DNA of 64,000 nt from Flexithrix dorotheae DSM 6795 (GTDB lineage Bacteria > Bacteroidota > Bacteroidia > Cytophagales > Flammeovirgaceae): the NCBI RefSeq assembly GCF_000379765.1, contig NZ_KB903498.1:139-64138 (forward strand), read 5' to 3'. The notes below the pieces were generated by a model. It ran no database searches and was not told where the DNA came from. It was given only the letters and a program-made list of their open reading frames with translations. Below are positions 12,800-54,657 of the stretch, in pieces. The translations under genes and the position numbers were made by a program. Within the stretch, counting starts at the first letter, position 1; each line of letters starts with the position of its first letter.

Positions 12800-12810
12800 T
12801 GATGAGGGAA

Positions 12811-13437: not shown

Positions 13438-13759
13438 GGCTTAGGTTTTTTGGTTTGATAACTATTGGTCAGAAGATTATGCCAGTCTATAAAATAGGTC
13501 CTGATTACGTATTATAGCCCTTTTACATTAATTCCATTGGGGAATTTTTCTACATCCTGAAGTGTAAATTGTGAAAAAAATTCCTCCAACAAGGCTGTCC
13601 TTCCTCAAAATTATAATGAATTTGAAATCAACAGGTAAAAACCATTTGGGCAAAACCTGCGGGCATATCTTCACTAATGTTTTCAGGAATCTGAATCCGT
13701 CAGGGGTACATCAGGGAATTGATTGAGGAAGTTGGAAAAGAGGAGTAATCTTATCGTTT

Positions 13760-13788
13760 TTTGGAAAGGGAAGGATGTTTTATATTTT
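13760..13788 (+). promoter_or_regulatory. Candidate promoter for the MDR dehydrogenase gene
   Basis: TTTG (13760-13763) and TATATTTT (13781-13788) are spaced 17 bp, close to the Bacteroidota TTTG / TAnnTTTG pattern, about 50 bp before the ATG at 13841. The rest of the 403-bp spacer 13438-13840 has no recognisable gene. Confidence 0.4.
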
Positions 13789-13840
13789 TACATAACAGTG
13801 CAGAACAGTTTAATTTCATCAATCCGAAAAAATTTGAATT

Positions 13841-26106: not shown

Positions 26107-26274
26107 ATTAATCTATTTTTAATTTGATGGTTAATTTTCTCTTAAGGGCAGTTACAATTACATTTTGGGCTACATACAATTCTATCTTTTAATGAGGTTT
26201 GTTAATATTGTATATTATCTTGATTTTTAGATAATCTTCCCTGCTCATGGGAATGACAACAAACTAAATTGAAA

Positions 26275-28416: not shown

Positions 28417-28580
28417 AAAATGTACTTTTGAAATTGAATGGAATGGCCAGCCATCGAATATACCAATTCAGCGAATGAAAGGCGCAAAATATCGGTAAAA
28501 TTCTTGGAAATCTGGCAAAACTCAATTTACTTCAAGAGCTAAAATTACCTATTAAATCACTTAGAACCAGAATACTGCCG

Positions 28581-32195: not shown

Positions 32196-32206
32196 CCAAT
32201 AAAAAA

Positions 32207-34369: not shown

Positions 34370-35971
34370 CTATTGATATTCTATATTTTGTTTTAAGTTT
34401 CCATTATTATCTATTTCAGATTGTGGAATAGGCTTGATCAAATGTTTGGGTTCCCAGTTTTGCTGAGCAAGTGTATTTCCAAAATCAATATCTGTTTTAA
34501 TGTTTATCAGATTGGCCCGGTGCCATCTTACCAAATCATCATATCGATGACATTCCAAAGCAAGTTCTACTCTTCTTTCGTGCATCAACCACTGGAACAT
34601 CTGGTTTTGATCTACCGCAGCAGATCTTGCTGGTAATAAATCAGCCGGAGCAGGATCACCATTCACAATTTCATAATTATTTCTGGCTCTTTCTCTCACC
34701 ATATTGATGAGCTCTGCGGCTCTGGCTACATTTCCATTGCCAAGCAACTCCGCTTCCGCAAGCATTAATAATACATCTGCATATCGGATTACCCTTTCAT
34801 TATTTCCACTCCAGTTGGGAGGAAACTGTCCGGTTACGAATGGTCTCAAATATTTGGCTGGAGAAGCTCCTGTAATTGACCAGGCAGGATCATATGGTGC
34901 ACCTGCATAATCTTCTCCTTCCTGATAAAAAGTATGGAAAATTCTGGGGTCACCATCTTCAAATTCATTTTGGAGAGAACTGGTAATATGCACCTGGCCA
35001 TAACCATCACTATTAGCACCGGGGGCGCAATTTCCATTATGACAGGAAGTCCCCATAAATACTTTTCTACCTGTACCGGCTGCTCCAACATTTTGGTTTT
35101 GAGGAAGACCAAAATCTGTAGGCAACCAGGGATTAAAATCTCCTCTTGTCATCTGAATCTCAAATACAGACTCTGCATTATTTTCAGAATTTTCAGAGAA
35201 ATTTGCTCCAAAATCTTCCATCAGACTAAATTTTCCTACCAGCTTGTTTAGCTCTGTAGCCGCTTCTGCATACTTAGCCGCATTTCCTTCCCACTGTGCC
35301 CGGAATAATTTTACTTTTCCAAGTAAGGCGGTTGCTGCAAGGGAAGTAGCCCTGCCTACATTGTCGGCATCCCAGGATTCTGGAAGATTTTCCTGCCCAA
35401 CTTTTAAATCTGATTCAATAAAATCCCATAATTCTGCGAATGTGGCATTGCCAATTTTCGAATCTTCAATGCTTGTCACCACTTCAGATACTAAGGGAAC
35501 TTCACCATAATTTCTTACCAACACGAAGTAAAAATAGGCCCTTAGGAATTTGGCTTCTCCTTCAAATCGAGCTTTATTTCCCTCGTCAGAGAAACCATCA
35601 GCAAGAGGTAATCGATCCATGATTACGTTTGCTCTCATAATCCCTTTGTAAGATTCATTCCACAAATAATTGAATTCACCATCGTTGGGTAACCATCGAA
35701 ATTCTTCCTGTGCATTGCTGCCTTGGGGGTTTCTTACATCATCTCCAGGATACAAAATTCCTTTAAACCATCCCCTTCCATTTTGATCGAAGTATAAATT
35801 AAGGAGCGTAGAGTATGGAGCCAGAGAGGCAGCCTCAAAATCTTTTTCAGTATTGTAAAAAGTTTGAGAGTTCAATTCTCCAAGTGGAGAAAGGTCCAGT
35901 CTTTTTTCACATTCGCTAAAAACAAGCAAACAGCTGAGTAGTAAAAAACTATATTTTATTTTTCTTTTCAT
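34370..35971 (-). CDS. SusD/RagB-family outer-membrane glycan-binding lipoprotein
   Basis: 533 residues. Signal with Cys14 (LLLSC) and Cys20 (FSEC) as possible lipid sites; the second gives the usual short mature start CEKRLDLSPLG but has an atypical Glu at -1. The TPR-like SusD fold is evident from FYNTEKDFEAA, RGWFKG, GEAKFLRAYFYFVLVRNYG and the C-terminal WLMHERRVELALECHRYDDLVRW. It captures oligosaccharide or peptide-like nutrients for the SusC channel encoded directly upstream (87 bp). The ligand is unknown, since no degrading enzyme is in the same operon. Confidence 0.93.
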   Translation of the reverse strand: MKRKIKYSFLLLSCLLVFSECEKRLDLSPLGELNSQTFYNTEKDFEAASLAPYSTLLNLYFDQNGRGWFKGILYPGDDVRNPQGSNAQEEFRWLPNDGEFNYLWNESYKGIMRANVIMDRLPLADGFSDEGNKARFEGEAKFLRAYFYFVLVRNYGEVPLVSEVVTSIEDSKIGNATFAELWDFIESDLKVGQENLPESWDADNVGRATSLAATALLGKVKLFRAQWEGNAAKYAEAATELNKLVGKFSLMEDFGANFSENSENNAESVFEIQMTRGDFNPWLPTDFGLPQNQNVGAAGTGRKVFMGTSCHNGNCAPGANSDGYGQVHITSSLQNEFEDGDPRIFHTFYQEGEDYAGAPYDPAWSITGASPAKYLRPFVTGQFPPNWSGNNERVIRYADVLLMLAEAELLGNGNVARAAELINMVRERARNNYEIVNGDPAPADLLPARSAAVDQNQMFQWLMHERRVELALECHRYDDLVRWHRANLINIKTDIDFGNTLAQQNWEPKHLIKPIPQSEIDNNGNLKQNIEYQ

Positions 35972-36058: not shown

Positions 36059-39000
36059 TTAGAAACCAACTTGTAGTCCTAATTGCAGGGTTCTGGTCTG
36101 GGGAATATTTCCCTGATCTGTTCCTGCTCCCAGTTGGTTTGATATTGCTCTATAAGTAAAGACTTCGGGATCTGGTCCTGAATAATTGGTAATTGTCAAC
36201 AGGTTAGAACCTGAAACATAAACCCTAACATTTTGGATAGAATTGGTTTTATCCAATAGAGATTTGGGTAAAGAGTATCCAAGCTGCAAGTTTTTCATCC
36301 TAAAATACCCGGCATCCTCTACAAACCTGTCAGAAAATCTGTTGTTGTCGTTGGGATCGGTAGCGATTGCTCTTGGCATGGTGTTACTTGTTCCAGGACC
36401 AGTCCATCGATTTGCAGTAGTACTCATTACATTTCGTCCACTTCCAGTAAGCCTTTCCCCATCTCTTCTGAATTCATTGTATAACTGTACTCCGGAAACA
36501 CCCTGAAAGAAAATACTAAGGTCGAATCCCTTATAGTTGGCTCCTACATTTATTCCGTAATAGAAATCAGGAATGGTTTTTCCCAAATAGGTCCGGTCGT
36601 TAAAATTGATTTCTCCATCAGGTTCACCTGAGAATTGCTGTCCATCAGGAGCACCCTCTGGAGCGGGACCGTTATTGTCTACAAAAATCACATCCCCTGC
36701 TCTTGCACCCTGAGAATTGGCATCAGGAAGGGCATTAGCTGCTTCCGCATCGGTTTGGTAAATTCCCGCAGTCTGGTAACCATAGAAATAACCGATGGGT
36801 TGCCCGATTCCGGTTCTGTAAATTTCATTGGAAGAAAATTCTTCAATTCCCGGAGCCAATGCAGTTAATTCATTCTTTACAGTGGTAAGGTTAGTAGCAA
36901 TGTCAAGATTAAACTCTCCAAAGTTTTGATGGTAGCCTAATTCCAACTCTATACCCGAGTTCACTACTTCACCTACGTTTGCGGGTGTATTTTCAAACCC
37001 GGTAATTCTTGGTAATGGCAGAGAGATTAAAAAATCCTTGGTGGTTCTTTTGTAATAAGTCATTAAAAGATCGAATTTGTTATCCAGAAAAGTCATATCA
37101 AAGCCCACATCAAATGTTTCGTTTGTCTCCCATATCACTTCCTTGTTTACAAAGTTTACCGGGGCCGGGGCCTGTACAGAAGTAGAGCCTGCCAATCCAT
37201 AATCTGGAGTTGGAGAAACTCTAAACACATGCGGGAAAGCAGTGGTCTGATCATTACCCAATTGTCCCCAGCTACCTCTTATTTTAAGTTCGGAAATGGC
37301 ATTTATTCCATTAAAGAAATCCTCCTCACTTACTCTCCAGGCTGCAGATACGGATGGAAAGGTTCCCCATCTTCTATCATCTTCCGGAGAGAAGCTTGAA
37401 GTTCCGTCTCTTCTTACCGTAGCGGTTACCAAATATTTTTTCATGTAATCGTAACTAAACCTTCCTATATATCCCACATAAGCGCCTTCCCCGGCTCCAC
37501 CTCCAATCAGTAAATTTTCTGAGGCATTTTTCACATTAATATAAAAGTCAGGATCTGCAGAAAGGAAATTTTCTCCTCTCCCTGAAAGCGAAGTAGATCT
37601 TAATTTTTGATATTCTAATCCGGCTAAAACATTGAAGTTATGGTCGCCAAAATTTTTATCGTAATTTAAGGTGTTGGTGAATACCTGTGTATAACCCTCA
37701 CTTCTACTATCTGTTCTTTCCTGGTTTGGTCTGTTCAACCCCATCTCAGCAGCAGTATAACCAGGATTCCAGGAATCATTTCTGCCCCAATTCATATCAA
37801 TAGAGGCCATTGATTTAAATTTTAAACCATTGATAATTTCCAATTCACCATAGATACTACCCAGCATTCTGGTACTTCTGTCATAATTATCTCTGATCTG
37901 GTTGATCCCATTTTGGTTTCCGATAATTAATCCATTTACATCCTCATTGCCATTGTAGCCATATCTGTTTCCCGGAATTTCATTTCTATAATCATAGATT
38001 TCAAAAAATGGAGGCATGGTGGCTGCATTGGCCAGCAAAAATCCATCTCCTCCTCCATTCACACCTCTAAATACTTCCTGATAGGACATTGTAAAAGTAT
38101 TTCCAAACTTAAACCTTTTGCCTACCTTATAGTCCGCATTTGCCCGGAATGTATACCGGTCAAGTTCCCATTTGTTCAATACTGCATCCTGGTTAAAATA
38201 TCCTGCAGAAACGAAATAGTTTGCATTGTCATTTGCTCCGGAAACCGAGAGGTTATAATTCTGAATGGGTGCATTATTATTTTTTACATCACCCGCCCAG
38301 TCTTCATTAATACTTCTGTAAGGTGAACCTGGCTGTAGGTCTGGATGCAAAATTAAGTAACTTGGGTCGTCAGGAGAAAGCTCATTTTGAATATTAAAGT
38401 TGTTGTAAGCTTCCTCGGTAAGGGCAATATACTGATCTGTATTATTCATATCCCACATACTCGGAAGTTTTTGTACCCCATAATATCCGTCAAAATTGAT
38501 TTGCGGCTTACCCTGTTTTCCTCTTTTGGTTGTAATGATTACTACTCCATTGGCAGCCCTTACACCATATACAGCTGCAGCGGAGGCATCTTTGAGCACC
38601 GATATACTTTCAATATCAGAAGGATTTAGTGTAGAAAGCGGGTTGGTAATAGGCCCATTTGGATTACCCCCTGTGTTTTTCCCAACCGGAACCCCATCAA
38701 TTACGAATAATGGTTGTGCGTTTCCTACCGTACCCACACCCCTGATTCTGATGGCTGTTGGAGCTCCCGGAGTACCATCCATTGGGGTAACCTGAACACC
38801 GGAAATTCTACCCTGTAAGGCCTGATCGGCACTGGATATGGGTAATTTTTGAATTTCTTCTGAATCCATTGTTCCTATAGATTCGGTGAGCAAAGTCCTG
38901 CTTTTCTCTCCATAACCAATTACGACTACCTCTTCCAATTGTGCTAAGTCAGTTTTAAGGGAAACATCAATCACAGACTGTGCACCTACTTCTAATTCCT

Positions 39001-39583
39001 GAGTAACATAGCCAATATAACTAAATTGTAGAGTAGAACCTTCTGTTACACTGAGTGAATAATTTCCATCAAAATCGGTAGTCGTTCCTGATGAAGTTCC
39101 TTTAATTAAAATACTTACCCCTGGAAGTGGCTCATTGGTGTCATCTGTTACTTTTCCACTTATTTTCACTTGCTGGAATTCCGTAACACTTTCTTTTAAG
39201 TTGGGGAATTTATTGGTGTTTTTAGAAATGTGTATATTGTTATTTATCCTGGTAAAACGCAATCCAGTTTGCTTGGAGATGGTATATAACAATTCAGCAA
39301 CGCTACTGTTTCCACCAATTATTTTAACTTTTTCATTTTCATTGAGTGTGGCATCGGTGAAGGTAAAACTAAAATTTGTTTTTCTTTCCAACTCAGCGAT
39401 AGCCTTCTTAAGCGATACGTTCTTGGAAGAGACATGAACCTCAATATCATGAATACTTCCTTTCTCTTTCTGGGCATTACCTTCATTGGCCAGCAAAAAA
39501 CTGCAGAAGAATGACTGGACAAAAATGCCAAATACCAAAAGCTTAGACATAATAATAATTTGTCTTAGTAATTTCAATTTCAT
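36059..39583 (-). CDS. SusC/RagA-family TonB-dependent transporter with STN signalling domain
   Basis: 1174 residues. Signal peptide to about NEGNAQ, then an STN domain (~48-115: VSLKKAIAELERKTNFSF) that marks transporters coupled to FecR/sigma signalling, a carboxypeptidase-regulatory-like beta domain (~135-210: KVTDDTNEPLPGVSILIKGT), a TonB box and plug (EEVVVIGYGEKSR, then LFVIDGVPVG), and a 22-stranded barrel ending LQLGLQVGF. It imports substrate using TonB energy; with the FecR and ECF genes upstream it probably senses its own substrate. ATG at codon 13 is an alternative start. Confidence 0.94.
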   Translation of the reverse strand: MKLKLLRQIIIMSKLLVFGIFVQSFFCSFLLANEGNAQKEKGSIHDIEVHVSSKNVSLKKAIAELERKTNFSFTFTDATLNENEKVKIIGGNSSVAELLYTISKQTGLRFTRINNNIHISKNTNKFPNLKESVTEFQQVKISGKVTDDTNEPLPGVSILIKGTSSGTTTDFDGNYSLSVTEGSTLQFSYIGYVTQELEVGAQSVIDVSLKTDLAQLEEVVVIGYGEKSRTLLTESIGTMDSEEIQKLPISSADQALQGRISGVQVTPMDGTPGAPTAIRIRGVGTVGNAQPLFVIDGVPVGKNTGGNPNGPITNPLSTLNPSDIESISVLKDASAAAVYGVRAANGVVIITTKRGKQGKPQINFDGYYGVQKLPSMWDMNNTDQYIALTEEAYNNFNIQNELSPDDPSYLILHPDLQPGSPYRSINEDWAGDVKNNNAPIQNYNLSVSGANDNANYFVSAGYFNQDAVLNKWELDRYTFRANADYKVGKRFKFGNTFTMSYQEVFRGVNGGGDGFLLANAATMPPFFEIYDYRNEIPGNRYGYNGNEDVNGLIIGNQNGINQIRDNYDRSTRMLGSIYGELEIINGLKFKSMASIDMNWGRNDSWNPGYTAAEMGLNRPNQERTDSRSEGYTQVFTNTLNYDKNFGDHNFNVLAGLEYQKLRSTSLSGRGENFLSADPDFYINVKNASENLLIGGGAGEGAYVGYIGRFSYDYMKKYLVTATVRRDGTSSFSPEDDRRWGTFPSVSAAWRVSEEDFFNGINAISELKIRGSWGQLGNDQTTAFPHVFRVSPTPDYGLAGSTSVQAPAPVNFVNKEVIWETNETFDVGFDMTFLDNKFDLLMTYYKRTTKDFLISLPLPRITGFENTPANVGEVVNSGIELELGYHQNFGEFNLDIATNLTTVKNELTALAPGIEEFSSNEIYRTGIGQPIGYFYGYQTAGIYQTDAEAANALPDANSQGARAGDVIFVDNNGPAPEGAPDGQQFSGEPDGEINFNDRTYLGKTIPDFYYGINVGANYKGFDLSIFFQGVSGVQLYNEFRRDGERLTGSGRNVMSTTANRWTGPGTSNTMPRAIATDPNDNNRFSDRFVEDAGYFRMKNLQLGYSLPKSLLDKTNSIQNVRVYVSGSNLLTITNYSGPDPEVFTYRAISNQLGAGTDQGNIPQTRTLQLGLQVGF

Positions 39584-39772: not shown

Positions 39773-40810
39773 TCATTTATTTTCATGAGTTAGTGTTACA
39801 ATTTTCCCATCAATTTTATATTTAAAATTGAATGATATTTTCATTCCTTTCAGCACATTTTCCAGTGATTCATCCTGAAAACGGCCCGTGAATTTTTCTT
39901 TAAAAGACAGCCCCGGTTTTAGAATAAAGGTGACTCCATACCACCTCTCCAGCTTGTTTAGTATAGTTCGAAAATCGTCTTCCTGAAATAAAATCGTTCC
40001 ATTTTTCCAGGCCACCACTTCTTTAGGATCAAACTTATCTTTTACCACTTCACCAGTTTTTTTATAGGTAATTCGGTCATTTGGTTTTAGAATAAAACTA
40101 TTTCCTTCCTGATTTGAAACTTTGAGCTTTCCGGTTACCAGGGAAATTTCAACTCCTTCGTATGAATTAATGTTGAAAGAAGTCCCTAATACTTTTGCCT
40201 CAATATCATTAACTACCACAATAAATGGTTTGGCAGGATTTTCAGTGACGTCAAAAAAGGCTTCACCAGTGAGAAAAACCTTTCTGGTTTCTCCTTCAAA
40301 GAACCGGGAAAATTTCAACGAACTTTCTGCATTTAATTTTACCGTAGTCCCATCACCTAAGGTAAGTGTACTTTTCATCCCTTTGGGGGTACTTTTTTCC
40401 AGAAGCTCCGTGGCTGTGATTTTTTCTTTTCCTAAATTTTCAAAATTTTCAACAATAAGATAGGCACCAGCAAAGGCTAATAAAAGGGGTAAAAGAACAG
40501 CTGCAATTTTTTTATAATTTTGAAGAAAGCTTTTCTCCTGTTCCTCTTCAAATGCTATAGTGTGAGAGTGATCCTCCTTAAATATCTTCTCGAACATTTC
40601 AAGGTAATCTTCTTCCTGAAGTTCTGGAGTATAAGCCAATTCCAGATTCTGAACAATATGTTTTGCCTGTAATATGTCCTTTCGCTTGGCCGGATTATTC
40701 TGAATCCATTTTTCCCAAAACTCACCTGATTCATGGTCAGCATTCTTGGCCCACTTCACAAAAAGGTCGTCTTTTATAAAATCCTCTATGGTATAATCCT
40801 TATAATTCAT
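39773..40810 (-). CDS. FecR-family anti-sigma factor
   Basis: 345 residues. A cytoplasmic N-terminal helical domain (~1-90) is followed by one membrane helix (~95-113), the FecR beta domain (~135-240: TLGDGTTVKLNAESSLKFSR; ITYKK), and a DUF4974-type C-terminal domain (~260-335: LNKLERWYGVTFILK). It should bind the ECF factor inside and the transporter's STN domain outside. It lies between the sigma and SusC genes. Confidence 0.93.
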   Translation of the reverse strand: MNYKDYTIEDFIKDDLFVKWAKNADHESGEFWEKWIQNNPAKRKDILQAKHIVQNLELAYTPELQEEDYLEMFEKIFKEDHSHTIAFEEEQEKSFLQNYKKIAAVLLPLLLAFAGAYLIVENFENLGKEKITATELLEKSTPKGMKSTLTLGDGTTVKLNAESSLKFSRFFEGETRKVFLTGEAFFDVTENPAKPFIVVVNDIEAKVLGTSFNINSYEGVEISLVTGKLKVSNQEGNSFILKPNDRITYKKTGEVVKDKFDPKEVVAWKNGTILFQEDDFRTILNKLERWYGVTFILKPGLSFKEKFTGRFQDESLENVLKGMKISFNFKYKIDGKIVTLTHENK

Positions 40811-40996: not shown

Positions 40997-41680
40997 CTAA
41001 CCAATTAACATCAGGAGGATTAGGGGAAAAAGGAGGTATTTTATAGCCGAAATTTTTTCTTTCAGGCTTTCAATTCCTCTGTATATAAGTTTTCTGGCAG
41101 AATCTTTATTTTTCAAACCCATGATATAGGCAATTTCTTCATGAGAAAATCCCTCATAATAATAATGTACGATAGCCTGTCTTTGCTTTTTTGAGAGCTT
41201 GTTTAATTCCTTTGTTAAAAATTGAAGTCTTTCCTGATAGGTTTCTCCTTCAATGAGCTCTACTTCGGCATTTATTTTTATGGAAAAACCTCCAGCATTC
41301 AGATTTTGATTTCCATCATAAATAACAAAATCATTCTTCTTTGATTTTTCCAGCAGCATTCTCCACAAACTTTTGTACAGGTAAGCCTTAATGGAAACTA
41401 CCTCACCCAAAGATTTTCGCTTCATTTTTAAATGAATAAACAAATCCTGGATTTTATCTTTAATTCTATCTTTATCTCTGGTGATCTGGTGACCAAAAAT
41501 GAATAATTTTTCTACATAGGTGTTATAAATATGGCATAAGGCATCATCGTCACCATTCTTAAATAGCAACCAGATTTCCGGGTCAGATTTTCCCGGGAAA
41601 CCCTGCTGATCAAATTGCACTGTTTTGGGTACAGCTTTTTTCGCTGGAGATGGGATAAATGATTTTTGCCCGATCTTCAT
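40997..41680 (-). CDS. ECF-type RNA polymerase sigma factor with hydrophobic C-terminal tail
   Basis: 227 residues. Sigma-2 region (SDPEIWLLFKNGDDDALCHIY; DKIQDLFIHL) and sigma-4 helix-turn-helix (LSKKQRQAIVHYYYEGFSHEEIA is the region, with GLKNKDSARKLIYRGIESL). The last ~17 residues (AIKYLLFPLILLMLIG) are wholly hydrophobic, so the factor may be tethered to the membrane near FecR. The start at 41680 adds a ~20-residue extension before the sigma domain. It probably drives the SusC/D operon and itself. Confidence 0.9.
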   Translation of the reverse strand: MKIGQKSFIPSPAKKAVPKTVQFDQQGFPGKSDPEIWLLFKNGDDDALCHIYNTYVEKLFIFGHQITRDKDRIKDKIQDLFIHLKMKRKSLGEVVSIKAYLYKSLWRMLLEKSKKNDFVIYDGNQNLNAGGFSIKINAEVELIEGETYQERLQFLTKELNKLSKKQRQAIVHYYYEGFSHEEIAYIMGLKNKDSARKLIYRGIESLKEKISAIKYLLFPLILLMLIG

Positions 41681-44946: not shown

Positions 44947-45852
44947 CTATTCAGTTTTAAATGAAATGGTTCCCAGGTTTGAAAATTCTACTTTCACTTC
45001 GGCAGCATCATCAATAGTTGGATTTGCATAAAGTGAACCCGTAATGACCAAATCTCCTGCTTTGAGATATTGCCCGTATTTTGGAAGCAAATTGGCTAAT
45101 TCATATAAGGCATTGAGAGGATTTCCATAAATATTGGATGCCACTCCCTTCGCTGCAAGTTTTCCATTTATAAAACATTTCGCGGTTTCATTTTCGAAGT
45201 CAAAATCAGAAGCCGGAATTTTAACTGTGCCTACAATGGTACCTGCCTGACCCATTCCAGTGGCCAAAACATGAGCAGGGTTTACCTGAGTTCCATTCGA
45301 AGTGGTGGCAATTGATTTTGCAAACTCTATGGCACCCACCACATATTCAATACAGGATTTGGCATCATCCATAGAGGAAAGGCCTTCTTTTAGGTCATTT
45401 TTTATGATAAATCCTACCTCTGCTTCCACCATGGCACCACCTCCGGGAAAGGTTTCCATTGGGACAGAGGAATTGGGTGCAATCATATTTGTATTAAGGA
45501 TATATCCAAAAACAGGATCAAATTGAGCCGGATCGGAAGTGGCCGTACCACCCATTTTCCAGCCAATTTTAGTTTTTCCCTTGGCTAATTCTTTTTCCAA
45601 TACCCTCAATTGAATTTTTGAGGCCAGCTCCCTTTCCAGGTCGGGGTTTTCTCTTGATAATAAATCGGTAATAATGGCATTTTCCCGGTAAAACTGAAGG
45701 GAATCTACCAATTGCTCCTCAGACATTTTCATACTTTTGGCTGCAGGTGGCGGAGTTTCTTCTGTTTGCTTCTTTTCAGGAGAAGAACAGGAAGCCAAAT
45801 AAATGAGCAATAAGGAAAAACTGAAAATTTGGAAAGGTGAAAAGGTTTTCAT
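44947..45852 (-). CDS. FAH-superfamily (2-keto-4-pentenoate hydratase-like) lipoprotein
   Basis: 301 residues. Signal with lipobox YLASC (Cys22) and a Pro/Glu linker, then the hydratase fold: GWKMGGTATSDPAQFDPVFGYIL, a metal-binding block AMVEAEVGFIIKND, VVGAIEFA and DLVITGSLYANP. This fold normally works in the cytoplasm on keto-acids from aromatic degradation; a lipid-anchored copy is unusual. It lies 45 bp after an Nramp-like transporter gene on the same strand, so a shared small-acid substrate is possible, which is inference. Confidence 0.85.
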   Translation of the reverse strand: MKTFSPFQIFSFSLLLIYLASCSSPEKKQTEETPPPAAKSMKMSEEQLVDSLQFYRENAIITDLLSRENPDLERELASKIQLRVLEKELAKGKTKIGWKMGGTATSDPAQFDPVFGYILNTNMIAPNSSVPMETFPGGGAMVEAEVGFIIKNDLKEGLSSMDDAKSCIEYVVGAIEFAKSIATTSNGTQVNPAHVLATGMGQAGTIVGTVKIPASDFDFENETAKCFINGKLAAKGVASNIYGNPLNALYELANLLPKYGQYLKAGDLVITGSLYANPTIDDAAEVKVEFSNLGTISFKTE

Positions 45853-45897
45853 GAGAGTGAGTTTAAGATTAGTAATCAGGGAGAAAGTTATTCTTGC

Positions 45898-47142
45898 TTA
45901 GAAAAAATCTTTTAAGGCTAAAAAACCTATATAGGAAATGATACAGGAGAAAATAAACGCGGCAATCAGGCCTAAATTTAGCATAATTCCCGCTTTGTGT
46001 TCCTGCATAATTTTTTCCTGGTTAATGATGTAAAAAATCCCGCCAATGGCCAAAGGAAGTACAAAAACATTGGCTACCTGGGTGGCAATCTGGGCAATAA
46101 TCGGATTGGCTCCCATGATAGGCACCGAAAGACCAACCACACAGGCCACAGCCGTTAATACTTTAAAAAGCTTTGATTTCACATCCAGTTTGCCATTTTT
46201 GTAATCCGCCACCAGCAATGGGGCTACCATAAGAATGGGGAAAACGGACGACAATCCTGCACTGAGTGCACCGGTCATGAAGAGGGCTACCGCAAATTTT
46301 CCGGCCACAGGTTCAAGGGTATTCACCATATCAATGACTCTATTGATACTTAGACCCTGATAATACATGGCTCCCATGGCTGTAATCATGATGGATCCGC
46401 TGATGACAAACATCAAAAGCGCAGAGGAAAAAGCATCTTTTGATTGGTTTTTAACTTCATTTATTCCCCAGCCTTTTCCCTGCATCAGCAGGGGTCGAAC
46501 CACAAAAGTAGGAGCTGCCATTGTGGTGCCTACAAATGCCGCAACCATTAAATTTCCTCCGGGAGCATCTGGAATGGTGGGGAGAAAACCCAGGGCTATT
46601 TCTGAAGGAGCAGGGAAAACAATAAACATAGATATGATAAAGGAAATCCCCATAATGGTGACAAATACAATGAGGACTTTCTCAAAAAATGAATAATTTC
46701 CCTGGATTAAAAGCAGGTAAAGGATGAACAGAATGCCGATGGCAATACCCAGAACTGCCCAATAACTTTCGGTGGGTAAAGTAGGTAAGAACAGCCGGGA
46801 AATTTCATAAAGTGCACTTGAAGAAAGGCCCACAATTCCGGAAAGGGAATTCCACTGCCCTATTACTATCCCAACCATGAGTAGAATAGCCAGTACTTTT
46901 CCATATTTTAGTTCTGTTTTAAAACTATTGACTGTGGTCCTTCCGGTAACCACAGCATATCTTCCATAGGCTTCCATCAGTGTCCAGGAAAAAAGACAAC
47001 TTAAAATCAAAACCCATAATAATTGAGATCCGAACTGGCTGCCTGCCTTGGCCATTGCAGTTACGCTTCCGGTACCTACCGTATAACCAATGCAAAAAAT
47101 TCCCGGGCCAATAGAGAGTAAAAAGGCTACGACTTTTTTCAT
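45898..47142 (-). CDS. Nramp-superfamily transporter lacking canonical metal-site motifs
   Basis: 414 residues with about eleven membrane helices. The N-terminal GPGIFCIGYTVGTGSVTAM region aligns with Nramp TM1, but the DPGN metal ligands are replaced, and TM6 carries TMAAPTFVVRP where Nramp has the MPH motif. It therefore probably does not move Mn or Fe in the classic way; some Nramp relatives carry Mg or other substrates. It is immediately upstream of the FAH-fold lipoprotein, suggesting an organic-acid related function. Calling it MntH would be wrong on this evidence. Confidence 0.82.
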   Translation of the reverse strand: MKKVVAFLLSIGPGIFCIGYTVGTGSVTAMAKAGSQFGSQLLWVLILSCLFSWTLMEAYGRYAVVTGRTTVNSFKTELKYGKVLAILLMVGIVIGQWNSLSGIVGLSSSALYEISRLFLPTLPTESYWAVLGIAIGILFILYLLLIQGNYSFFEKVLIVFVTIMGISFIISMFIVFPAPSEIALGFLPTIPDAPGGNLMVAAFVGTTMAAPTFVVRPLLMQGKGWGINEVKNQSKDAFSSALLMFVISGSIMITAMGAMYYQGLSINRVIDMVNTLEPVAGKFAVALFMTGALSAGLSSVFPILMVAPLLVADYKNGKLDVKSKLFKVLTAVACVVGLSVPIMGANPIIAQIATQVANVFVLPLAIGGIFYIINQEKIMQEHKAGIMLNLGLIAAFIFSCIISYIGFLALKDFF

Positions 47143-47245: not shown

Positions 47246-48346
47246 TTAATAGCCGGTAATCTCCTTTAGTTTATTAAAAAAGCTTTTTTTCCGATCGGAA
47301 TTGATACTCCAGTCCACCGGAACGCTTTGGAAGCCATCTTCAAATCCTTCCCCATCCATTCTAAAATCAAAATATCCCCAGGAAGCATAGGCTTTTATAG
47401 CATTTACCATGTTGTTTTCTTCCTTATCGAAATCAAAATGGTCATCTTCATTGAACAGGATCGGTTTAGGAGTATACCCTTCCACTTTTCTGGTATCTTC
47501 TACCAGCTTAGTCACTTTTTTCGGGTCTTTAATTCCATTGCCATGAATCAAAATAAAATCTGCAGATTTTACCACATTGGGTAAAGGCAAAAATCCTCCT
47601 CCATAGCTAGTGCTCACCAATAAACTAAATTCTTTTTTCTTCTTTTTCTGCACACGTTCAATCAGTTCATGGACCCTTTCCGGTTGCAAAATAGGGTGAT
47701 CATATCGGACATTGGATTCGTTGTTAATTTCTACGATTATATTCTTATAACCTTTATCCAAGATCCATTTAGTGATATTATCTACAGCATTTATTACTGC
47801 TTTTTCATCTTTCAGGTATTGATCCTGCCCAAAATAAAAATAACCCAGAATTACCACCATACCCAATTCATCGGCTTTATTGAGAATTTTCTCTAACCGG
47901 GCCATGTAATCTGATCGGAGTGCTCCCTCATCATCGAATGTTGAATTTCTCCAACCCTTATTGCCATAACCCATGGGGCTTCCTCCCTGCAAATTGAGTG
48001 TAAAAGCCAGCAAACCGTGCTTTTTCCATTCTTCCATTCCCAGAATAAATTCATCTGTATTCCTATCAGCATCCCATTTTTGGGTATCGGGATATTTAAA
48101 CCTGTCTCTGGTTTCCGGATTTAAATCATCGAAAATTCCCTGAACCATTCTCGAATTCATTAAAAGCCCTTCAATTTTATGCCCATTCCATTCCCGTCCT
48201 TTGTAGGTCAGTTCTCCGTTGATATAAAACTGATTCCCCTTAATGGAAACAATGGTTTTGTTTTTTTTCGCAGAAAAGGAAATAGCGAAGAAAACTGCAA
48301 TAGATAGTAGAAGTAGTTTAATAAATTTCATGTTTTTCATTTTCAA
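47246..48346 (-). CDS. Clan GH-A-like glycoside hydrolase (GH5-like), secreted
   Basis: 366 residues with a signal peptide (~1-25). A (beta/alpha)8 barrel is indicated by FTLNLQGGSPMGYG, VVILGYFYFGQDQY, VEINNES (Glu210 predicted acid/base) and PILFNEDDHF (Glu300 predicted nucleophile). I cannot name the exact GH family. It is last in a run of minus-strand genes with three sulfatases (23 bp from the next), so it probably acts on the same sulfated glycan after desulfation. Confidence 0.75.
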   Translation of the reverse strand: MKMKNMKFIKLLLLSIAVFFAISFSAKKNKTIVSIKGNQFYINGELTYKGREWNGHKIEGLLMNSRMVQGIFDDLNPETRDRFKYPDTQKWDADRNTDEFILGMEEWKKHGLLAFTLNLQGGSPMGYGNKGWRNSTFDDEGALRSDYMARLEKILNKADELGMVVILGYFYFGQDQYLKDEKAVINAVDNITKWILDKGYKNIIVEINNESNVRYDHPILQPERVHELIERVQKKKKKEFSLLVSTSYGGGFLPLPNVVKSADFILIHGNGIKDPKKVTKLVEDTRKVEGYTPKPILFNEDDHFDFDKEENNMVNAIKAYASWGYFDFRMDGEGFEDGFQSVPVDWSINSDRKKSFFNKLKEITGY

Positions 48347-48369: not shown

Positions 48370-49902
48370 TTAATAGTCTAAAAACTCACCACAAACCTTA
48401 TCCTGATACCATTTATCATCTGTTTGTTTGAGTAAAAATTCCAATTCCTTTATCAGTTTTTTTCCTACAGACGCTTCTATTTTTTCAAAAGGAATTCTAT
48501 TCAACTGGTTAGGATCAGCTTCGTTATCATAACAAAATACTTCATCGGCTTTTCCGTCTTTCTGGTTGACCACAAACATGTATTTTCCTGTGTAAACTCC
48601 TCTGGAATTACCATTCATGAAAAGTGCAGAGGCAGGTTTTTCCAAATCGTCCCCGGATGATTTTTTTAAAATGGAAGCGTAATTTTTTCCTTGCACTTCA
48701 TCAGGAATCTTATCTTCCATACCCGCCAGAGAAAGTAGGGTAGGCATCACATCTGGAACACTTAAGATTAAATCCTCTATTCTGGGTTTTAATTTATCCC
48801 CCCATTTAATTATAAATGGGATGTTATAAGCTTCTATTTCAGGTGTGTTTTTCCCAGTTTTGCCATGGCTTCCCAACATTTCTCCATGATCGGAGGAAAA
48901 TACAATTATGGTATTTTCCGAAAGCCCCAGTTTGGCCAAATGGTCCAGTACTTTCCCTATGAAATGATCTACTGCACTCACATTGGCATAATAGTATGGA
49001 GCATAGTGTCCCACAGCAGTATCAGCATTTTCATGGGTAAGGAGTTGATCAATATGGATATTCCCGGAATCTGTGTATTGATCAAAAAATTCCATATAAG
49101 TACTTTTTTCTGTCCATGGATTATGAGGCGGATTAAGCGACCACATCAGGAAAAAAGGTTTTTGGGGATCACGCTGGCCATGGGTATTGGACAAATAATC
49201 AATAATTTTTTCAGATTCCAGTTCTGCAGAAAATTTTCCGGGTTTATAAGGTTCCCCGTCCTTTTTGCCTTCAATCGCTTTTGGATCATTGGAATATACC
49301 AAAGGATTAAAATGGTCATCTTTTAAGGCCTGGAAGAAATAATCAATACTGTGTCGGTCAGGTCCTGGCGGAACATAGGTATCATAGCGGTTGATAAAAT
49401 GTCCTCCCGGAGCCTCTTTTGAACCCACAAAAGTCCCGTTCTCATCAAATAAAGGTTCGGTTTTCTGCCAGTGGCACTTCCCAAAATAGGCTACATTGTA
49501 ATCCGCCTGTGCAAAAACATCGGTTATACAAATGGCATCTGTTCTCAGTTGCACATCCCTGTCTGCCCTGCAATTATTGGTAATACCATTTTGATACGGA
49601 TACATTCCGGAGAGAAGCATACCCCTGTATGGACTGCATAATGGGAAATTGCTTACGGCCCGGCTGAATACAATTCCGCCTTCTGCCAGCTTATCCAAAG
49701 CGGGAGTAGACACAGGATCGGGATTGCCCTGTAAAAACTCCTTGTTCCCAGGCTTTGACCAAAAGCCCAGGCTGTAGTTTCGGTATTGATCAGGGCAAAT
49801 AAAAATAATGTTTGGAGCAGCTTCTTCTATGGCCTCATCTTTAGAGTTACAGGCGACCAATAGGATAATTTGAATTAAAATGAACCAATTAAAGTGCTTC
49901 AT
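48370..49902 (-). CDS. Sulfatase (S1 type), CSPYR active site, lipoprotein
   Basis: 510 residues. Lipobox LLVAC (Cys18). The alkaline-phosphatase-like domain has NIIFICPDQYRNY (metal site), Cys89 in CSPYRG (to be oxidised to formylglycine) and VFSSDHGEMLGSHGKTGK (metal site). The fourth active-site position is Tyr where Ser is usual. A C-terminal small domain ends at ~505. It removes sulfate from a glycan in the periplasm or at the outer membrane. It is 7 bp after the next sulfatase's stop, in one operon with 47246. The maturation enzyme is not in this window. Confidence 0.92.
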   Translation of the reverse strand: MKHFNWFILIQIILLVACNSKDEAIEEAAPNIIFICPDQYRNYSLGFWSKPGNKEFLQGNPDPVSTPALDKLAEGGIVFSRAVSNFPLCSPYRGMLLSGMYPYQNGITNNCRADRDVQLRTDAICITDVFAQADYNVAYFGKCHWQKTEPLFDENGTFVGSKEAPGGHFINRYDTYVPPGPDRHSIDYFFQALKDDHFNPLVYSNDPKAIEGKKDGEPYKPGKFSAELESEKIIDYLSNTHGQRDPQKPFFLMWSLNPPHNPWTEKSTYMEFFDQYTDSGNIHIDQLLTHENADTAVGHYAPYYYANVSAVDHFIGKVLDHLAKLGLSENTIIVFSSDHGEMLGSHGKTGKNTPEIEAYNIPFIIKWGDKLKPRIEDLILSVPDVMPTLLSLAGMEDKIPDEVQGKNYASILKKSSGDDLEKPASALFMNGNSRGVYTGKYMFVVNQKDGKADEVFCYDNEADPNQLNRIPFEKIEASVGKKLIKELEFLLKQTDDKWYQDKVCGEFLDY

Positions 49903-49909: not shown

Positions 49910-51409
49910 CTAGTTTTTTAATTTTTCCATCGCTTCTTTATACAAAGTTGTGTACTTGTGAAATCCAATTTCCTTTCCATTCAACATTTCCAGATAAGCT
50001 TCCGGATGTTTGTATTTTACCCAGTCTAAGATGTCAACTGCGGTTGGATAAACCGGATGAAAGGCATCGGATGAGGCGGTCATATCTTTTTCTGTTGCTT
50101 TCAGTTTAATCCGAAACTGATTCAGAATATCTTTATAATTATCATCACCAGCCAGGTTTTTTAATTCATGAGGGTCATTTTCAAGATCATACAATTCTTC
50201 AACAGGTTTGGTAGGAGAGAAAAAGTAAGCTTCATCAGCATTTAATTTTCCTTCAAATTTTAGCTTTCGCATGGCATGCACTGCCGGCCGGTAAAATTCC
50301 AGATAAGCCTGGTGTGCATCCCAGGAAACCTCCGGCATATAATTTTTAATATATTTATATTTTTTTGAGGTCAGACTTCTGGATTTTTCCATTACTTCAT
50401 CCCATAAATCCCTTGCACCATAGGAATATTCTCTTGAAAAATTATCATCCATAAATGAACTGCCAGTCATATATTCAGGAACCTCAATGCCTGCCAAATC
50501 AAGAATTGTAGCTGTGATATCTGTGGCACTTACAATTTCATCTCTTACTGCTCCGGTTTTTATTCCTTCCGGCCAGCTCACAATTAGCGGTATATGCAGG
50601 CCAGGATCAAAAAGATAGCCTTTTCCCCGGATATTACAGCGGCCATTATCTCCAATAAAAATAATCACTGTATTTTCATAAAGTCCTTTTTCTTTTAAAT
50701 CCTGAATGATAATACCAATTTCATGATCCATGTATTCCATCTGATCCAGGTATTTGGCCCAGTCAAGCCTTACTACAGGGTCATCAGCCATGTACGGAGG
50801 TAATTTTACTTTATCCGGATCAACAGGATGGTCAGACTTTTCACGGATTTCATCCCACCAGTCGCCTCTGTGGGTTACTTTTAACTGAATTTGGGCAAAA
50901 AATGGCGTTTCATCTTTTGGGATGATATCGTACTGATCAAATAGGCCAAATTTGTTTTTTCCATCCCATTCCCCAATAGCTTCATGTTTAAAGTTCACAT
51001 CTATTTTCCGGCCCTTTCCCATGACATATTCATTTCCTAAAATGCAGGTATATCCTGCTTTGCGGAGTAAATAAGTGAATGGTTTATATGGTTCTGCTAA
51101 TGGCAGCTCCCTGTTACTTCTATGATGCTGGGCGTTTATTTTGTTTTGCATCACCCCGGTCATCATTGCAGACCTGCTTGGTGAACAGATAGGATTGGTG
51201 ACGAAACAATTGTTGAACTTTAAGCCATTTTCTGCCAATTTATTCAATACCGGAGTTTTTACAGCTTCCATTCCATAGCATTCTATATCCGGTCCAATAT
51301 CTTCTGCCATGAGCCAGATAATATTTGGTCTTTCTTGGGAAATGGCTGTTAGGGAAATAAACATTCCCAGGGTAAATAAAAAGTAGACTTTGTTGGTTAG
51401 TTTTTTCAT
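49910..51409 (-). CDS. Sulfatase (S1 type), heparan-N-sulfatase-like group
   Basis: 499 residues with a soluble signal peptide to about TAISQ. It shows NIIWLMAEDIGPD (metal), Cys75 in NPICSPSRS (formylglycine), and IFIGDNGRCNIRGKG (metal and substrate). The overall layout resembles the N-sulfoglucosamine sulfohydrolase branch, but the glycan is not determined. A palindrome 145 bp upstream (51554) may regulate it. Confidence 0.92.
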   Translation of the reverse strand: MKKLTNKVYFLFTLGMFISLTAISQERPNIIWLMAEDIGPDIECYGMEAVKTPVLNKLAENGLKFNNCFVTNPICSPSRSAMMTGVMQNKINAQHHRSNRELPLAEPYKPFTYLLRKAGYTCILGNEYVMGKGRKIDVNFKHEAIGEWDGKNKFGLFDQYDIIPKDETPFFAQIQLKVTHRGDWWDEIREKSDHPVDPDKVKLPPYMADDPVVRLDWAKYLDQMEYMDHEIGIIIQDLKEKGLYENTVIIFIGDNGRCNIRGKGYLFDPGLHIPLIVSWPEGIKTGAVRDEIVSATDITATILDLAGIEVPEYMTGSSFMDDNFSREYSYGARDLWDEVMEKSRSLTSKKYKYIKNYMPEVSWDAHQAYLEFYRPAVHAMRKLKFEGKLNADEAYFFSPTKPVEELYDLENDPHELKNLAGDDNYKDILNQFRIKLKATEKDMTASSDAFHPVYPTAVDILDWVKYKHPEAYLEMLNGKEIGFHKYTTLYKEAMEKLKN

Positions 51410-51666: not shown

Positions 51667-53217
51667 TTATTTCAATTCCAGTTTTTCTGTTTCTTTATAT
51701 TCTATTCCCCGAATGCTTTCAAATTCTGCAATCATTTCTTCCAGTTTTTCTGGATTGCTTTCAGCCAGGTTATTTTGTTCGCCAATATCTTCCTTGAGGT
51801 TATACAATTGAAATTCATTGGCATTACCTATTTCTATATTAACCGTCTTTATCACAGCAGGTCCTTTGTAAGGAGGGATCATTGCCCAGTCTCCTTTTCG
51901 GAAAGCGGTACGGCTGGTGGCTTCCAAAACTAAATTGTCTCGGCCTTTTTCACTTTTACCTTTAAAAACATCCAGCAGATTCTGGCTGTCTCCTACCTGT
52001 ACATCACTGTCAGTTAAGGCAGCCAAAGATGCCAGAAAATCGATTTGGGAAACTAGTGCATCAGATACTCCTGGTTGAATTTCCCCTTCCCAGTATGTGA
52101 TAAAGGGTACTCTTGTTCCCGCTTCAAACAAACTGTATTTCCCCCCTCTTAATGGACCTGCCGGGGTATGTTTGCCTAATTTTTCCACTGCATCATCATA
52201 ATAACCATCATTCAGTACCGGGCCATTATCACTGGATAAAATGATCAGGGTGTTTTCCAATAAACCTTCTGTTTCCAGGGTTTTGATGAATTCACCGATG
52301 CACCAATCCGCTTCCACAATTACATCTCCTCTTGGTCCCATTCCTGATTTACCCACAAATCTTGGATGAGGTGTACGAGGAACGTGTGGTTGCTGTAAAG
52401 CATAATAGAGGAAGAATGGTTCATCTTTGTGTCCTTTGATGTATTCCTGTGCTTTGCCCAGAAAATGATCGGCCATATCTTCATCAACCCATTTGGCAGA
52501 TTCTCCTCCTTTCATAAACCCAATTCTGGGAATGCCATTTACAATACTATTGTTGTGACCGTGATGCCATTTCATTTTCAACAATTCAGGGTTGTCTTTT
52601 CCGGTAGGTTCTCCCTCAAAGTTTTTGCTGTAATCAATTTCAATGGGATCGTTCGGGTCAAGATTTACCACTTTCCCATTTTCAATATAGACGGTAGGCA
52701 CTCTGTCCTGAGTAGCCGCCATAATGTAGGCATAATCGAAACCTACCTCATTTGGTCCCGGAGAAATATGCTGGTTCCAATCTACTTGTCCGTCACCCAG
52801 ACCCAAATGCCATTTCCCCACAATTCCGGTATGGTATCCGCTTTGTTTCAACATTTTGGGGATAGTCATTTGTTGGGTACTGATTAGTAATGGAGCCGTT
52901 CCCGGAAGAATTTTGGCATTTTTGTTTCTCCATGGATACTGGCCGGTAAGCAAGGCATATCTACTGGGTGAACAAGTTGCAGAAGAGGCATAACCATTGG
53001 TAAACCTCATCCCTCCATTTGCCAGCCGATCAATATTTGGAGTTTTCAATTCAGTAGAACCATAGGCTCCAACATCTCCATAACCCAGATCATCAGCATA
53101 AATGATAATGACGTTTGGGGCTTTCTGCTCGACTACCTCCTTATTCTGCTCTGGTGCATTACAGGATAATAATATGGCTTGTAAAATTAGGATCTTTATT
53201 ATTCCTTTAACTTTCAT
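51667..53217 (-). CDS. Arylsulfatase (S1 type), lipoprotein
   Basis: 516 residues. Lipobox AILLSC (Cys19). NVIIIYADDLGYGDVG (metal), Cys82 in TCSPSRYALLTG (formylglycine) and ILSSDNGPVLNDG (metal) are canonical. It has the usual C-terminal domain. It is separated from the next sulfatase by 257 bp with a hairpin, so it has its own transcript, and follows the DgoD-like gene by 189 bp. The removed sulfate position is unknown. Confidence 0.93.
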   Translation of the reverse strand: MKVKGIIKILILQAILLSCNAPEQNKEVVEQKAPNVIIIYADDLGYGDVGAYGSTELKTPNIDRLANGGMRFTNGYASSATCSPSRYALLTGQYPWRNKNAKILPGTAPLLISTQQMTIPKMLKQSGYHTGIVGKWHLGLGDGQVDWNQHISPGPNEVGFDYAYIMAATQDRVPTVYIENGKVVNLDPNDPIEIDYSKNFEGEPTGKDNPELLKMKWHHGHNNSIVNGIPRIGFMKGGESAKWVDEDMADHFLGKAQEYIKGHKDEPFFLYYALQQPHVPRTPHPRFVGKSGMGPRGDVIVEADWCIGEFIKTLETEGLLENTLIILSSDNGPVLNDGYYDDAVEKLGKHTPAGPLRGGKYSLFEAGTRVPFITYWEGEIQPGVSDALVSQIDFLASLAALTDSDVQVGDSQNLLDVFKGKSEKGRDNLVLEATSRTAFRKGDWAMIPPYKGPAVIKTVNIEIGNANEFQLYNLKEDIGEQNNLAESNPEKLEEMIAEFESIRGIEYKETEKLELK

Positions 53218-53406: not shown

Positions 53407-54657
53407 TTACCAATCCACTACCGAACCATCAGACTCCAGATATGATTCTCTGTTCCGCCATTCATGCCCTAATTTATCGGCAATGGCATCTTCATCTAAT
53501 TGGATGCCGAGACCAGGGTCGGTAGGAATGTCTACATGGCCATTTTTGACTACAAATGGTTTTTTGATATATCCTTCACCAAGCGTAACCTGTTCCTGAC
53601 ATAAAAAATTGGGGATAGATGCCGCCAGTTGAAGTCCACTTGCCAGGGAAATTGGCCCAAGAGGATTGTGTGGTGCTATGGAAGCATAATGAGCTTCTGC
53701 CATTCCGGCAATTAATCTTCCTTCAAAAATACCTCCGGCATGGCACAGGTCTGGTTGAAGTATGCTGGCAGCTTGTTTTTCCAGAATTTCTCTAAATCCC
53801 CATTTTGTGAAAATCCGTTCTCCTGTAGCAATTGGCAGATGGGTTTCTTTGGCTAATCTTGCCATAATATCCACATTTTGACAATTGACAGGTTCTTCAA
53901 TAAAAAATGGCTGGTGGGGTTCCAGGGCATGAATGAGTAAAGCGGCATTTTGAGGACTGATAGCCCCATGAAAATCAATACCTACATCCCCGTCTTTACC
54001 AGCTGCAGCTTTTAATTCTGCAAAAGCCTGTGTGGCCTCTTCTATAAATTGTTGCGAAGCAATGATCCCCGACTGTGTAGCATTTTTCACACTGGTTTTA
54101 AAGGCTGTAAAACCCTCAGCCTTAGCTTTTTTTACAGTCTCTACCGATCTGGCATGGGCATAAACTCTTATTCGGTCTCTAGTTGGTCCTCCGAGAAGTT
54201 CATAAATTGGGACGCCTAGTGCTTTGCCTTTTATATCCCAGAGGGCCTGGTCTAGTCCACTTAAGGCGCTGGTGAGAATTGGGCCACCCCGGTAAAAGGA
54301 ATGTCTGTATAGAGCCTGCCAGTGATGCACGATTTTCCTGGCGTCTTTTCCGAGCAGGTAGGGTTCCATTTCCTTGATGGCCATGGCACAGGTATCGGCC
54401 CGACCTTCTGTAATGGGTTCTCCCAGGCCAATTATTCCCGCATCAGTATGGACTTTCAAGAAGAGAAATCTGGGTTTTACTTTAAAGGTTTCTAATTGGG
54501 TAATTCTTATGGCTTCGCGTTCCCCATTTAAAGAAACCTGTGAGGAATCTTTAGCCTGAAGACTATAAGCACCCGTGGTACTGATGGCTATGGAAGCAAA
54601 AGCATTTCTGAAGAATTTCCTTCTGGAACGTGAACTGTTTTCATTTACAATTGTCAT
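53407..54657 (-). CDS. D-galactonate dehydratase-like enolase-superfamily enzyme with Tat-like signal
   Basis: 416 residues. The N-terminus SRSRRKFFRNAFASIAIS plus TGAYSLQAKD is a Tat-type signal, unexpected for this cytoplasmic family. The enolase-superfamily barrel shows the DgoD pattern: GIDFHGAISP (Asp, His), FFIEEPVNCQN, ATGERIF, LQPDLCHAGG and APHNPLGPI (catalytic His). It would remove water from a galactonate-type sugar acid. It lies next to sulfatases, consistent with use of galactose- or anhydrogalactose-derived acids. A cycloisomerase role is an alternative. Confidence 0.85.
   Translation of the reverse strand: MTIVNENSSRSRRKFFRNAFASIAISTTGAYSLQAKDSSQVSLNGEREAIRITQLETFKVKPRFLFLKVHTDAGIIGLGEPITEGRADTCAMAIKEMEPYLLGKDARKIVHHWQALYRHSFYRGGPILTSALSGLDQALWDIKGKALGVPIYELLGGPTRDRIRVYAHARSVETVKKAKAEGFTAFKTSVKNATQSGIIASQQFIEEATQAFAELKAAAGKDGDVGIDFHGAISPQNAALLIHALEPHQPFFIEEPVNCQNVDIMARLAKETHLPIATGERIFTKWGFREILEKQAASILQPDLCHAGGIFEGRLIAGMAEAHYASIAPHNPLGPISLASGLQLAASIPNFLCQEQVTLGEGYIKKPFVVKNGHVDIPTDPGLGIQLDEDAIADKLGHEWRNRESYLESDGSVVDW

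Follow-up and report, generated by a model that had tools for sequence, protein, structure and literature searches.

What does a transporter carry if it has the Nramp fold but none of the residues that bind metal in canonical Nramp proteins, and does it act together with the enzyme encoded beside it? Both questions are raised by a 64,000-nt stretch of the genome of Flexithrix dorotheae DSM 6795 (the window; contig NZ_KB903498.1), which encodes an Nramp-related transporter, here called T, and, 45 bp downstream on the same strand, an FAH-fold protein with a lipoprotein signal (Table 1). The initial annotation of this DNA read the two genes as a possible uptake system for a keto-acid or a related small acid. 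Our analysis points, with moderate confidence, to T importing 2-keto-3-deoxy sugar acids or closely related keto uronates, and not metal ions, while the FAH gene is found at few of the loci that hold a relative of T. Labels such as L096 denote the compared loci.

Fold and former metal site of the transporter

T scores well above the cut-off of the Pfam Nramp family PF01566 in a Pfam scan (188.8 versus 29.8 bits) and also passes the NCBIfam model 'Nramp family divalent metal transporter' (81.3 bits, cut-off 50). An AlphaFold model of T made from a 49-row alignment (pLDDT 87.6, pTM 0.88) has DraNramp as its best structural match (6d91; Z 44.0, root-mean-square deviation 2.7 over 387 residues, 16% identity), followed by EleNRMT (7qji, Z 41.6), a YcsG model (Z 38.3) and, further down, amino-acid carriers, AdiC among them (Z 29.6). 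By sequence, the nearest solved relative is EleNRMT (7qia, 57 bits). PDB entry 9a52 is also among the structural matches; its deposited model pairs YcsG with FabL. T combines the PF01566 match and an Nramp-type fold with the absence of the DPGN motif of transmembrane helix (TM) 1 and the MPH motif of TM6, which places it in the 'Nramp-related' part of the superfamily. The initial annotation had likewise seen an Nramp-like transporter lacking both motifs, and the coordinates of the open reading frame (ORF), the PF01566 match and the alignment described below bear this out.

A scan of a species-genome collection gave 474 relatives of T, the best 80 of which (57–82% identity) were taken as loci; with the window they make up 81 T loci (L063 and L154 are the same locus). 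In a scan of the phylum, 24 of 395 genomes held a T relative at E up to 1e-30. We read the ligand columns on an alignment of 183 Nramp-superfamily proteins, in which the T group is represented by 101 proteins: 64 with Pro211, 21 with Ala211 and 16 of a more distant clade. The first two sets, 85 close T proteins in all, come from 76 of the 80 fetched loci, seven phylum-scan loci, L005 and the window; L118, L150 and L160, where a longer antisense ORF displaced that of the transporter, and the duplicate L154 were left out of the motif counts.

The four canonical ligands, D and N in TM1 and M and H in TM6, correspond to G23, S26, A209 and P211 of T. Each of them is present in all 61 canonical Nramps, while not one is found in any of the 101 T proteins. 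Where the canonical proteins have D, P and N of DPGN (61/61), the T proteins have G23, T24 and S26 (101/101), and where they have M, P and H (again 61/61), the window protein reads AAP. Position 216 is likewise split, with His in 61/61 canonical Nramps and Arg in 101/101 T proteins, and neither TM1 nor TM6, as delimited on the AlphaFold model, has a conserved acidic residue among the 85 close T proteins. Where canonical Nramps bind metal, the T branch thus carries a sequence signature of its own. Since the ligand positions are replaced and the fold matches those of DraNramp and EleNRMT, T is an Nramp-fold carrier without a metal site of the known kind. Conserved Arg216, as a fixed positive charge, would be better suited to an anion than to a divalent cation.

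Gene contexts and the candidate substrate

Gene contexts were read in the 80 fetched loci, the phylum-scan loci and the window, with family names taken from hidden Markov model matches of representatives and extended to other loci by sequence clusters or phmmer. In this scheme PL6 and PL17 are our reading of Chondroitinas_B and Hepar_II_III/Alginate_lyase Pfam matches and KdgF that of a Cupin_2 match, while SusC/SusD-like genes at L096, L099 and L164 were called from sequence. One or more genes that serve the metabolism of 2-keto-3-deoxy acids or uronates were present in 36 of the 81 T loci and in 0/40 canonical Nramp loci of the same phylum, a contrast that is favoured toward T because the context seeds came from T loci themselves; the canonical loci were picked among the best-scoring places listed, and most of them come from genomes other than those of the T loci. 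Of the seven close T loci that the phylum scan gave, six have such a gene. The T branch of Nramp-related proteins recurs in sugar-acid loci.

These contexts fall into several types. T is followed by DgoK (PF05035) and a KDPG-type aldolase in L063/L154, where an SMP-30-type protein comes next, and in L156 and L159. DgoK and the aldolase act at the stage of the 2-keto-3-deoxy acid, not on the intact sugar. KdgK is encoded in L065, and in L066 and L067 T ends a series of genes for an SDR, KdgK, a PFK-like protein and KDPG aldolase. Alginate loci are exemplified by L068 (PL7, T, kinase–6PGD fusion, PL17-like, PL6) and by L164 and its relatives (SusCD-like, T, PL17-like, KdgF-like cupin, MFS, SDR, KdgK), with at least one of PL7, PL17-like, PL6 or KdgF-like genes in L068, L069, L155, L163–L169, L172–L174 and others. 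A GarL-type aldolase gene is found in L119, L123, L125, L130, L136, L140 and L141, directly after T in L119, L123 and L130. Galactonate/mannonate-dehydratase-type genes occur in the window, L095, L096, L099, L103, L105, L116 and L141; in L095 and L103 the enolase-superfamily dehydratase gene immediately precedes T, and in L116 it lies one gene further away. Other recurring neighbours suggest no substrate, such as the clusters scanned in L100 (amidohydrolase, RidA-like, class-V aminotransferase), found in 16–17 of 80 loci. A glucose/sorbosone-dehydrogenase-type gene with cytochrome c, of the type seen in L104, recurs in 8/80.

A more distant clade, at 34–40% identity to T, sits in a different setting, with GH20, NagB- or NagA-like genes, pointing to N-acetylglucosamine (GlcNAc), in 12 of its 15 loci and a uronate gene (GH88) in three; neither kind of gene was seen at the 40 canonical loci. 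The second Nramp-related gene of the F. dorotheae genome (L072, C14:557900-575900) is 38–39% identical to T and directly follows an amidohydrolase gene, which we read as NagA-like at L072/L071 (Amidohydro_1, scanned in L071, where the start is signal-like); two Gfo/Idh oxidoreductase genes lie upstream. A third Nramp-related type, found in the same genome (L091, C7) and in L087, has GPGSLT in TM1 and, in L091, ASSFSIVGVF in TM6; it is followed by two conserved genes for proteins of about 338 and 352 amino acids (aa), which in L091 matched no Pfam family at E 1e-6. Many of the canonical Nramp ORFs of this phylum (L175–L244) are about 620–655 aa long, some 200 residues longer than others.

Residue 211, at the position of the canonical His ligand, divides the 85 close T proteins into 64 with Pro and 21 with Ala, and it follows the kind of neighbouring gene. 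Of the 21 Ala211 loci, 16 showed alginate genes (PL6, PL7, PL17-like, KdgF-like), against none of the 64 Pro211 loci; for dgo, GarL, dehydratase or FAH genes the counts are 0/21 and 18/64, respectively. The five Ala211 loci counted without alginate genes are L070, L157, L161, L162 and L170, of which L070 (the locus of L005) entered as 'no alginate genes' without a context scan. Fisher's test of residue 211 versus alginate genes gives p = 2.6e-13, a value that ignores descent and is not to be taken as a probability. In the GlcNAc-context clade two further positions differ, residue 21 being Asn in 15/16 and residue 96 Glu in 14/16, where all 85 close T proteins have Thr and Gln. A quick tree, which carries a long-branch warning (L053 and L054, among others), needs two changes each for the Pro, Ala and GlcNAc groups and unites the canonical Nramps in one group (SH-aLRT 99).

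Several observations weigh against sugar acids as the substrate of T. Besides the origin of the context seeds, 45 of the 81 T loci, including all nine labelled Cyclobacterium, have no gene matched by the seeds, and 20 of 78 T genes lack a same-strand neighbour within 250 bp. Arg216 is also present in 16/16 proteins of the GlcNAc-context clade and is therefore not specific for acids. The link between residue 211 and context rests on few independent lineages and may reflect one or two events, and given the few changes and long branches of the tree we treat it as a lead and not as proof. The remaining points concern what else T might carry.

T could still carry a divalent cation, Mg2+ or Mn2+; its co-expression with sugar-acid catabolism would then reflect the divalent-metal requirement of enolase-superfamily dehydratases, kinases and sulfatases. 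The superfamily itself, the NCBIfam model, the proximity in sequence to EleNRMT and structural matches to metal-transporter entries at Z 32–44 all speak for this. Moreover, EleNRMT, although Nramp-related, moves Mg2+ (PMC12873925), and YcsG, a homologue of PxpT, is reported to raise cellular Mn or import Mn2+ in B. subtilis (PMC10448178), even though PxpT-like proteins have neither DPGN nor MPH; loss of these motifs thus does not exclude metal transport. On the other hand, in all 101 T proteins the four ligands are replaced and an Arg is conserved in TM6, and TM1 and TM6 keep no conserved acidic residue in the close T proteins. In addition, sugar-acid contexts are absent from the 40 canonical Nramp loci of the phylum that were compared, and residue 211 varies with the substrate class to which the adjacent genes belong. 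Weighing these, we consider a metal substrate unlikely.

We regard it as quite improbable that T carries some other product of these loci (a neutral sugar, a short uronide oligosaccharide or an amino sugar) while the 2-keto-3-deoxy acid enters by another route. An MFS gene, encoding a possible importer, is present in 9 of the 16 alginate T loci, and two alginate papers name an MFS protein (or ToaABC) as the importer (PMC12472053, PMC7874173). The amino-sugar genes beside the 34–40% identity clade and sulfatase-only matches in four T loci would also fit. This alternative is harder to reconcile with the dgoK and aldolase genes placed directly after T in L063, L156 and L159, and the other seven alginate T loci have no MFS gene in the stretch, five of these stretches being short. 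That a member of this superfamily may serve an organic substrate has been seen before: C. glutamicum needs PxpT, a related protein, to grow on 5-oxoproline, although the authors of that work leave room for metal transport (PMC13274462). None of the papers listed in literature searches, some with listings cut short and with most subscription papers beyond their reach, gave the T clade a sugar-acid function.

Import of 2-keto-3-deoxy sugar acids or keto uronates by T thus remains our preferred reading, and the contexts suggest that the guess of a keto-acid or small acid in the initial annotation was in the right class, even if the two-gene system attached to it did not hold. A broader reading, possible but in our view a shade short of probable, is that a widespread branch of the Nramp superfamily consists of carriers of carbohydrate-derived acids and amino sugars. 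The TM1 and TM6 positions that bind metal in canonical Nramps would then set the substrate class, with Pro211 for dgo-type, Ala211 for alginate-type and Val, Ala or Ser211 together with Asn21 and Glu96 for GlcNAc loci, and Arg216 would be the shared anchor. The window lineage would represent a periplasmic version of the De Ley–Doudoroff pathway in which exported enzymes first dehydrate sugar acids, the products then enter as 2-keto-3-deoxy acids, and an exported FAH enzyme takes part.

The FAH lipoprotein and the window locus

The FAH protein matches FAA_hydrolase (PF01557) with 38.2 bits (cut-off 23.9) and begins with MKTFSPFQIFSFSLLLIYLASC, and two homologues at 49% identity (48.8% for L096 and 48.0% for L099) share its lipobox Cys, C22. 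These observations confirm that the gene after T encodes an FAH-fold enzyme with a lipoprotein signal, as the initial annotation stated. Among solved structures the protein comes closest to HpaH/HpcG-type hydratases and oxalocrotonate decarboxylases (PDB 2eb4, E 2.3e-16), while the HpaH equivalog TIGR02312 is not reached (99.4 bits, cut-off 351.5). K99, E143, E145 and E176 are invariant across the three intact FAH proteins and align with K61, E106, E108 and E139 of 2eb4 (positions counted by hand); we take them to be catalytic, with a metal-binding Glu triad and Lys as in HpcG. An AlphaFold run on the FAH protein with a three-row alignment (pLDDT 46.4) was not used.

An intact FAH gene was found in only 3 of the 81 T loci: in the window, in L096 directly downstream of T, and in L099 about 8 kb upstream of T. 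In L097 an FAH gene starts right after T and is broken by a frameshift and truncation. Outside these loci FAH relatives are rare, with 3 of 395 genomes in the phylum (F. dorotheae itself and two at 36–37% identity that are not beside T) and 1 of 291 in the order, F. dorotheae alone. A PF01557 search of the F. dorotheae genome gave five other FAH proteins but missed that of the window, which suggests that the first pass of this search loses weak members, and it was not used for counting. The T–FAH pair as a unit was accordingly rejected. The proposal that FAH enzyme and T always act together can point to intact adjacency in the window and L096, decayed adjacency in L097, the looser linkage in L099, the conserved lipobox and K/E/E/E set and the dehydratase-type genes that L096 and L099 share with the window; with T recurring without FAH and the FAH gene so rare, it is already refuted as a general rule, and we find it hardly credible.

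A galactonate/mannonate-dehydratase-type gene of the enolase superfamily is common to all three FAH loci. The galactonate dehydratase cut-off is passed by the window enzyme (Table 1) and the L096 enzyme (349.3 bits), while the L099 enzyme, cut by the end of the stretch, is nearer ManD (340.6 bits, under the ManD cut-off of 550). In L096, genes that by sequence are SusC/SusD-like lie ahead of the dehydratase gene, and in L099 a PQQ-dehydrogenase-type gene lies just upstream of T. Three loci thus show a module to which the FAH gene belongs, together with T, a sugar-acid dehydratase gene and SusCD-like genes. In L096 the FAH lipoprotein gene is immediately followed by one (12152-14404) for a sulfatase fused to an SMP-30/gluconolactonase domain.

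Table 1. Features of the window, with strand and basis of assignment.
Feature	Position	Strand	Basis
Nramp-related transporter T without metal ligands, 414 aa	45898..47142	-	PF01566, AlphaFold model, structural match
TM1 segment of T, residues 19-28, GYTVGTGSVT	47059..47088	-	Gly23/Ser26 at canonical metal-binding Asp/Asn; 183-protein alignment
TM6 segment of T, residues 205-217, GTTMAAPTFVVRP	46492..46530	-	Ala209/Pro211 at canonical Met/His; Arg216 at canonical His
FAH-fold (HpaH/MhpD-like) protein with lipoprotein signal, 301 aa	44947..45852	-	PF01557, NCBIfam, 2eb4, conserved residues
FAH lipoprotein signal, residues 1-22, ending LASC	45787..45852	-	sequence; Cys22 invariant in three-protein alignment
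Protein with weak GH5 (Cellulase) similarity, same gene run as T	47246..48346	-	PF00150 E 7e-4, 19.6 bits, under cut-off 23.5
Sulfatase, same gene run as T	48370..49902	-	PF00884
Sulfatase, same gene run as T	49910..51409	-	PF00884
Sulfatase, same gene run as T	51667..53217	-	PF00884
Galactonate-dehydratase-type enolase-superfamily enzyme, Tat-like signal SRRKFF	53407..54657	-	NF010624 417.8 bits, cut-off 311; signal by sequence
SusD-like protein of surrounding polysaccharide-utilisation-like locus	34370..35971	-	PF07980, PF14322
SusC-like TonB-dependent receptor	36059..39583	-	judged from sequence and position
FecR-like protein	39773-40810	-	PF04773/PF16344
Sigma-70 region-4 protein	40997-41680	-	PF08281

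The genes of the window suggest a route in which T, as an inner-membrane LeuT-fold carrier of the Nramp superfamily, would provide the import step. In this route the probable role of the sulfatases and the putative glycosidase is to free a sugar. The acid of that sugar, most likely galactonate, would be dehydrated outside the cytoplasm by the putative D-galactonate dehydratase; T would import the resulting 2-keto-3-deoxy-galactonate. We place acid formation outside the cytoplasm because the dehydratase has the Tat-like motif and the FAH enzyme a lipobox, signals from which export of both is predicted. Once the compound is inside, DgoK would phosphorylate it and a KDPG-type aldolase would cleave it; the genes for these two enzymes are adjacent on another contig of the same genome (C1:799 kb). 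Galactonate is converted to pyruvate and glyceraldehyde 3-phosphate by the dehydratase, DgoK and the aldolase, so the dgoK–aldolase pair would complete this pathway. For the FAH lipoprotein, the probable role is that of a metal-dependent hydratase, dehydratase or isomerase outside the cytoplasm, with this 4-hydroxy-2-keto acid or a by-product of it as substrate. Members of the HpaH/MhpD branch of the FAH family make or use 4-hydroxy-2-keto acids, the same chemical class as 2-keto-3-deoxy acids, which makes it plausible that the lipoprotein hydrates or dehydrates the compound imported by T. Fold, superfamily, metal-ligand loss, conservation of Arg216, neighbouring enzyme families, recurrence of contexts and the dgoK–aldolase pair are tool-based results; the substrate, direction of transport and coupling ion of T and the FAH reaction are inferred. 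Elsewhere in the window (26269-33562), a polysaccharide lyase family 8 gene precedes genes for a 1204-aa cytochrome-c/PSD protein and an HXXSHH (DUF1552) protein.

Significance and comparison with known systems

Should T indeed take up sugar acids, it would supply an inner-membrane step in the use of alginate and galactonate by bacteria from several phyla (one scan gave 474 relatives), and many 'metal transporter' annotations would be wrong, since T-like proteins receive that name automatically by passing the NCBIfam cut-off. The evolution of Nramp metal selectivity could then be studied against close relatives with organic substrates. According to a 2026 preprint, all Nramp-related groups are 'entirely uncharacterised' but two, the NRMT-like group with the Mg2+ transporter EleNRMT and that of MntG/YcsG, a proposed Mn2+ importer (PMC12873925), which makes a testable substrate for one further group useful.

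Canonical Nramp/MntH proteins such as DraNramp have the fold and PF01566 in common with T but differ in the DPGN and MPH motifs, absent from T, and form a separate group in the tree. EleNRMT has the same fold at 19% identity, with an Asp in TM1 where T has Gly23 (counted by hand on a pairwise alignment); that this Asp defines the NRMT group is our assumption. We know of no sugar-acid gene context for EleNRMT. HpaH/HpcG (2-oxo-hept-4-ene-1,7-dioate hydratase) and MhpD share with the window FAH protein the family and the K/E/E/E set; to our knowledge, they are cytoplasmic, whereas the window protein has a lipobox and scores far under the HpaH cut-off. In the alginolytic systems of Alteromonas sp. 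76-1, an Nramp-family gene is drawn in an alginate degradation cluster and labelled 'metal-ion transporter' (PMC6431674), a likeness to the T clade in family name and context.

PxpT/YcsG (MntG) resembles T in two respects: it belongs to the Nramp superfamily without having DPGN or MPH, and its gene lies beside catabolic enzymes for a small organic acid (pxpABC, 5-oxoprolinase). PxpT-like Nramp genes in L088, L089 and L090 stand ahead of three 5-oxoprolinase genes (scanned in L088), and L088 and L090 also have a conserved lipoprotein-like gene, 372–373 aa, just upstream. At the same time, the enzymes of the pxpABC operon differ from those around T, as LamB_YcsF and carboxyltransferase domains, found beside the PxpT-like gene in L088, were not seen in the 16 window proteins that were Pfam-scanned. 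The motifs differ as well (IGPGTVT in TM1 and VVPYNLFLH in TM6, versus VGTGSVT and AAPTFVVRP in T), and in the quick tree the 12 PxpT-like rows, named by the pxpABC context in L088 and by motif in an alignment without PxpT and YcsG themselves, form one side of a branch that holds no T rows (SH-aLRT 95).

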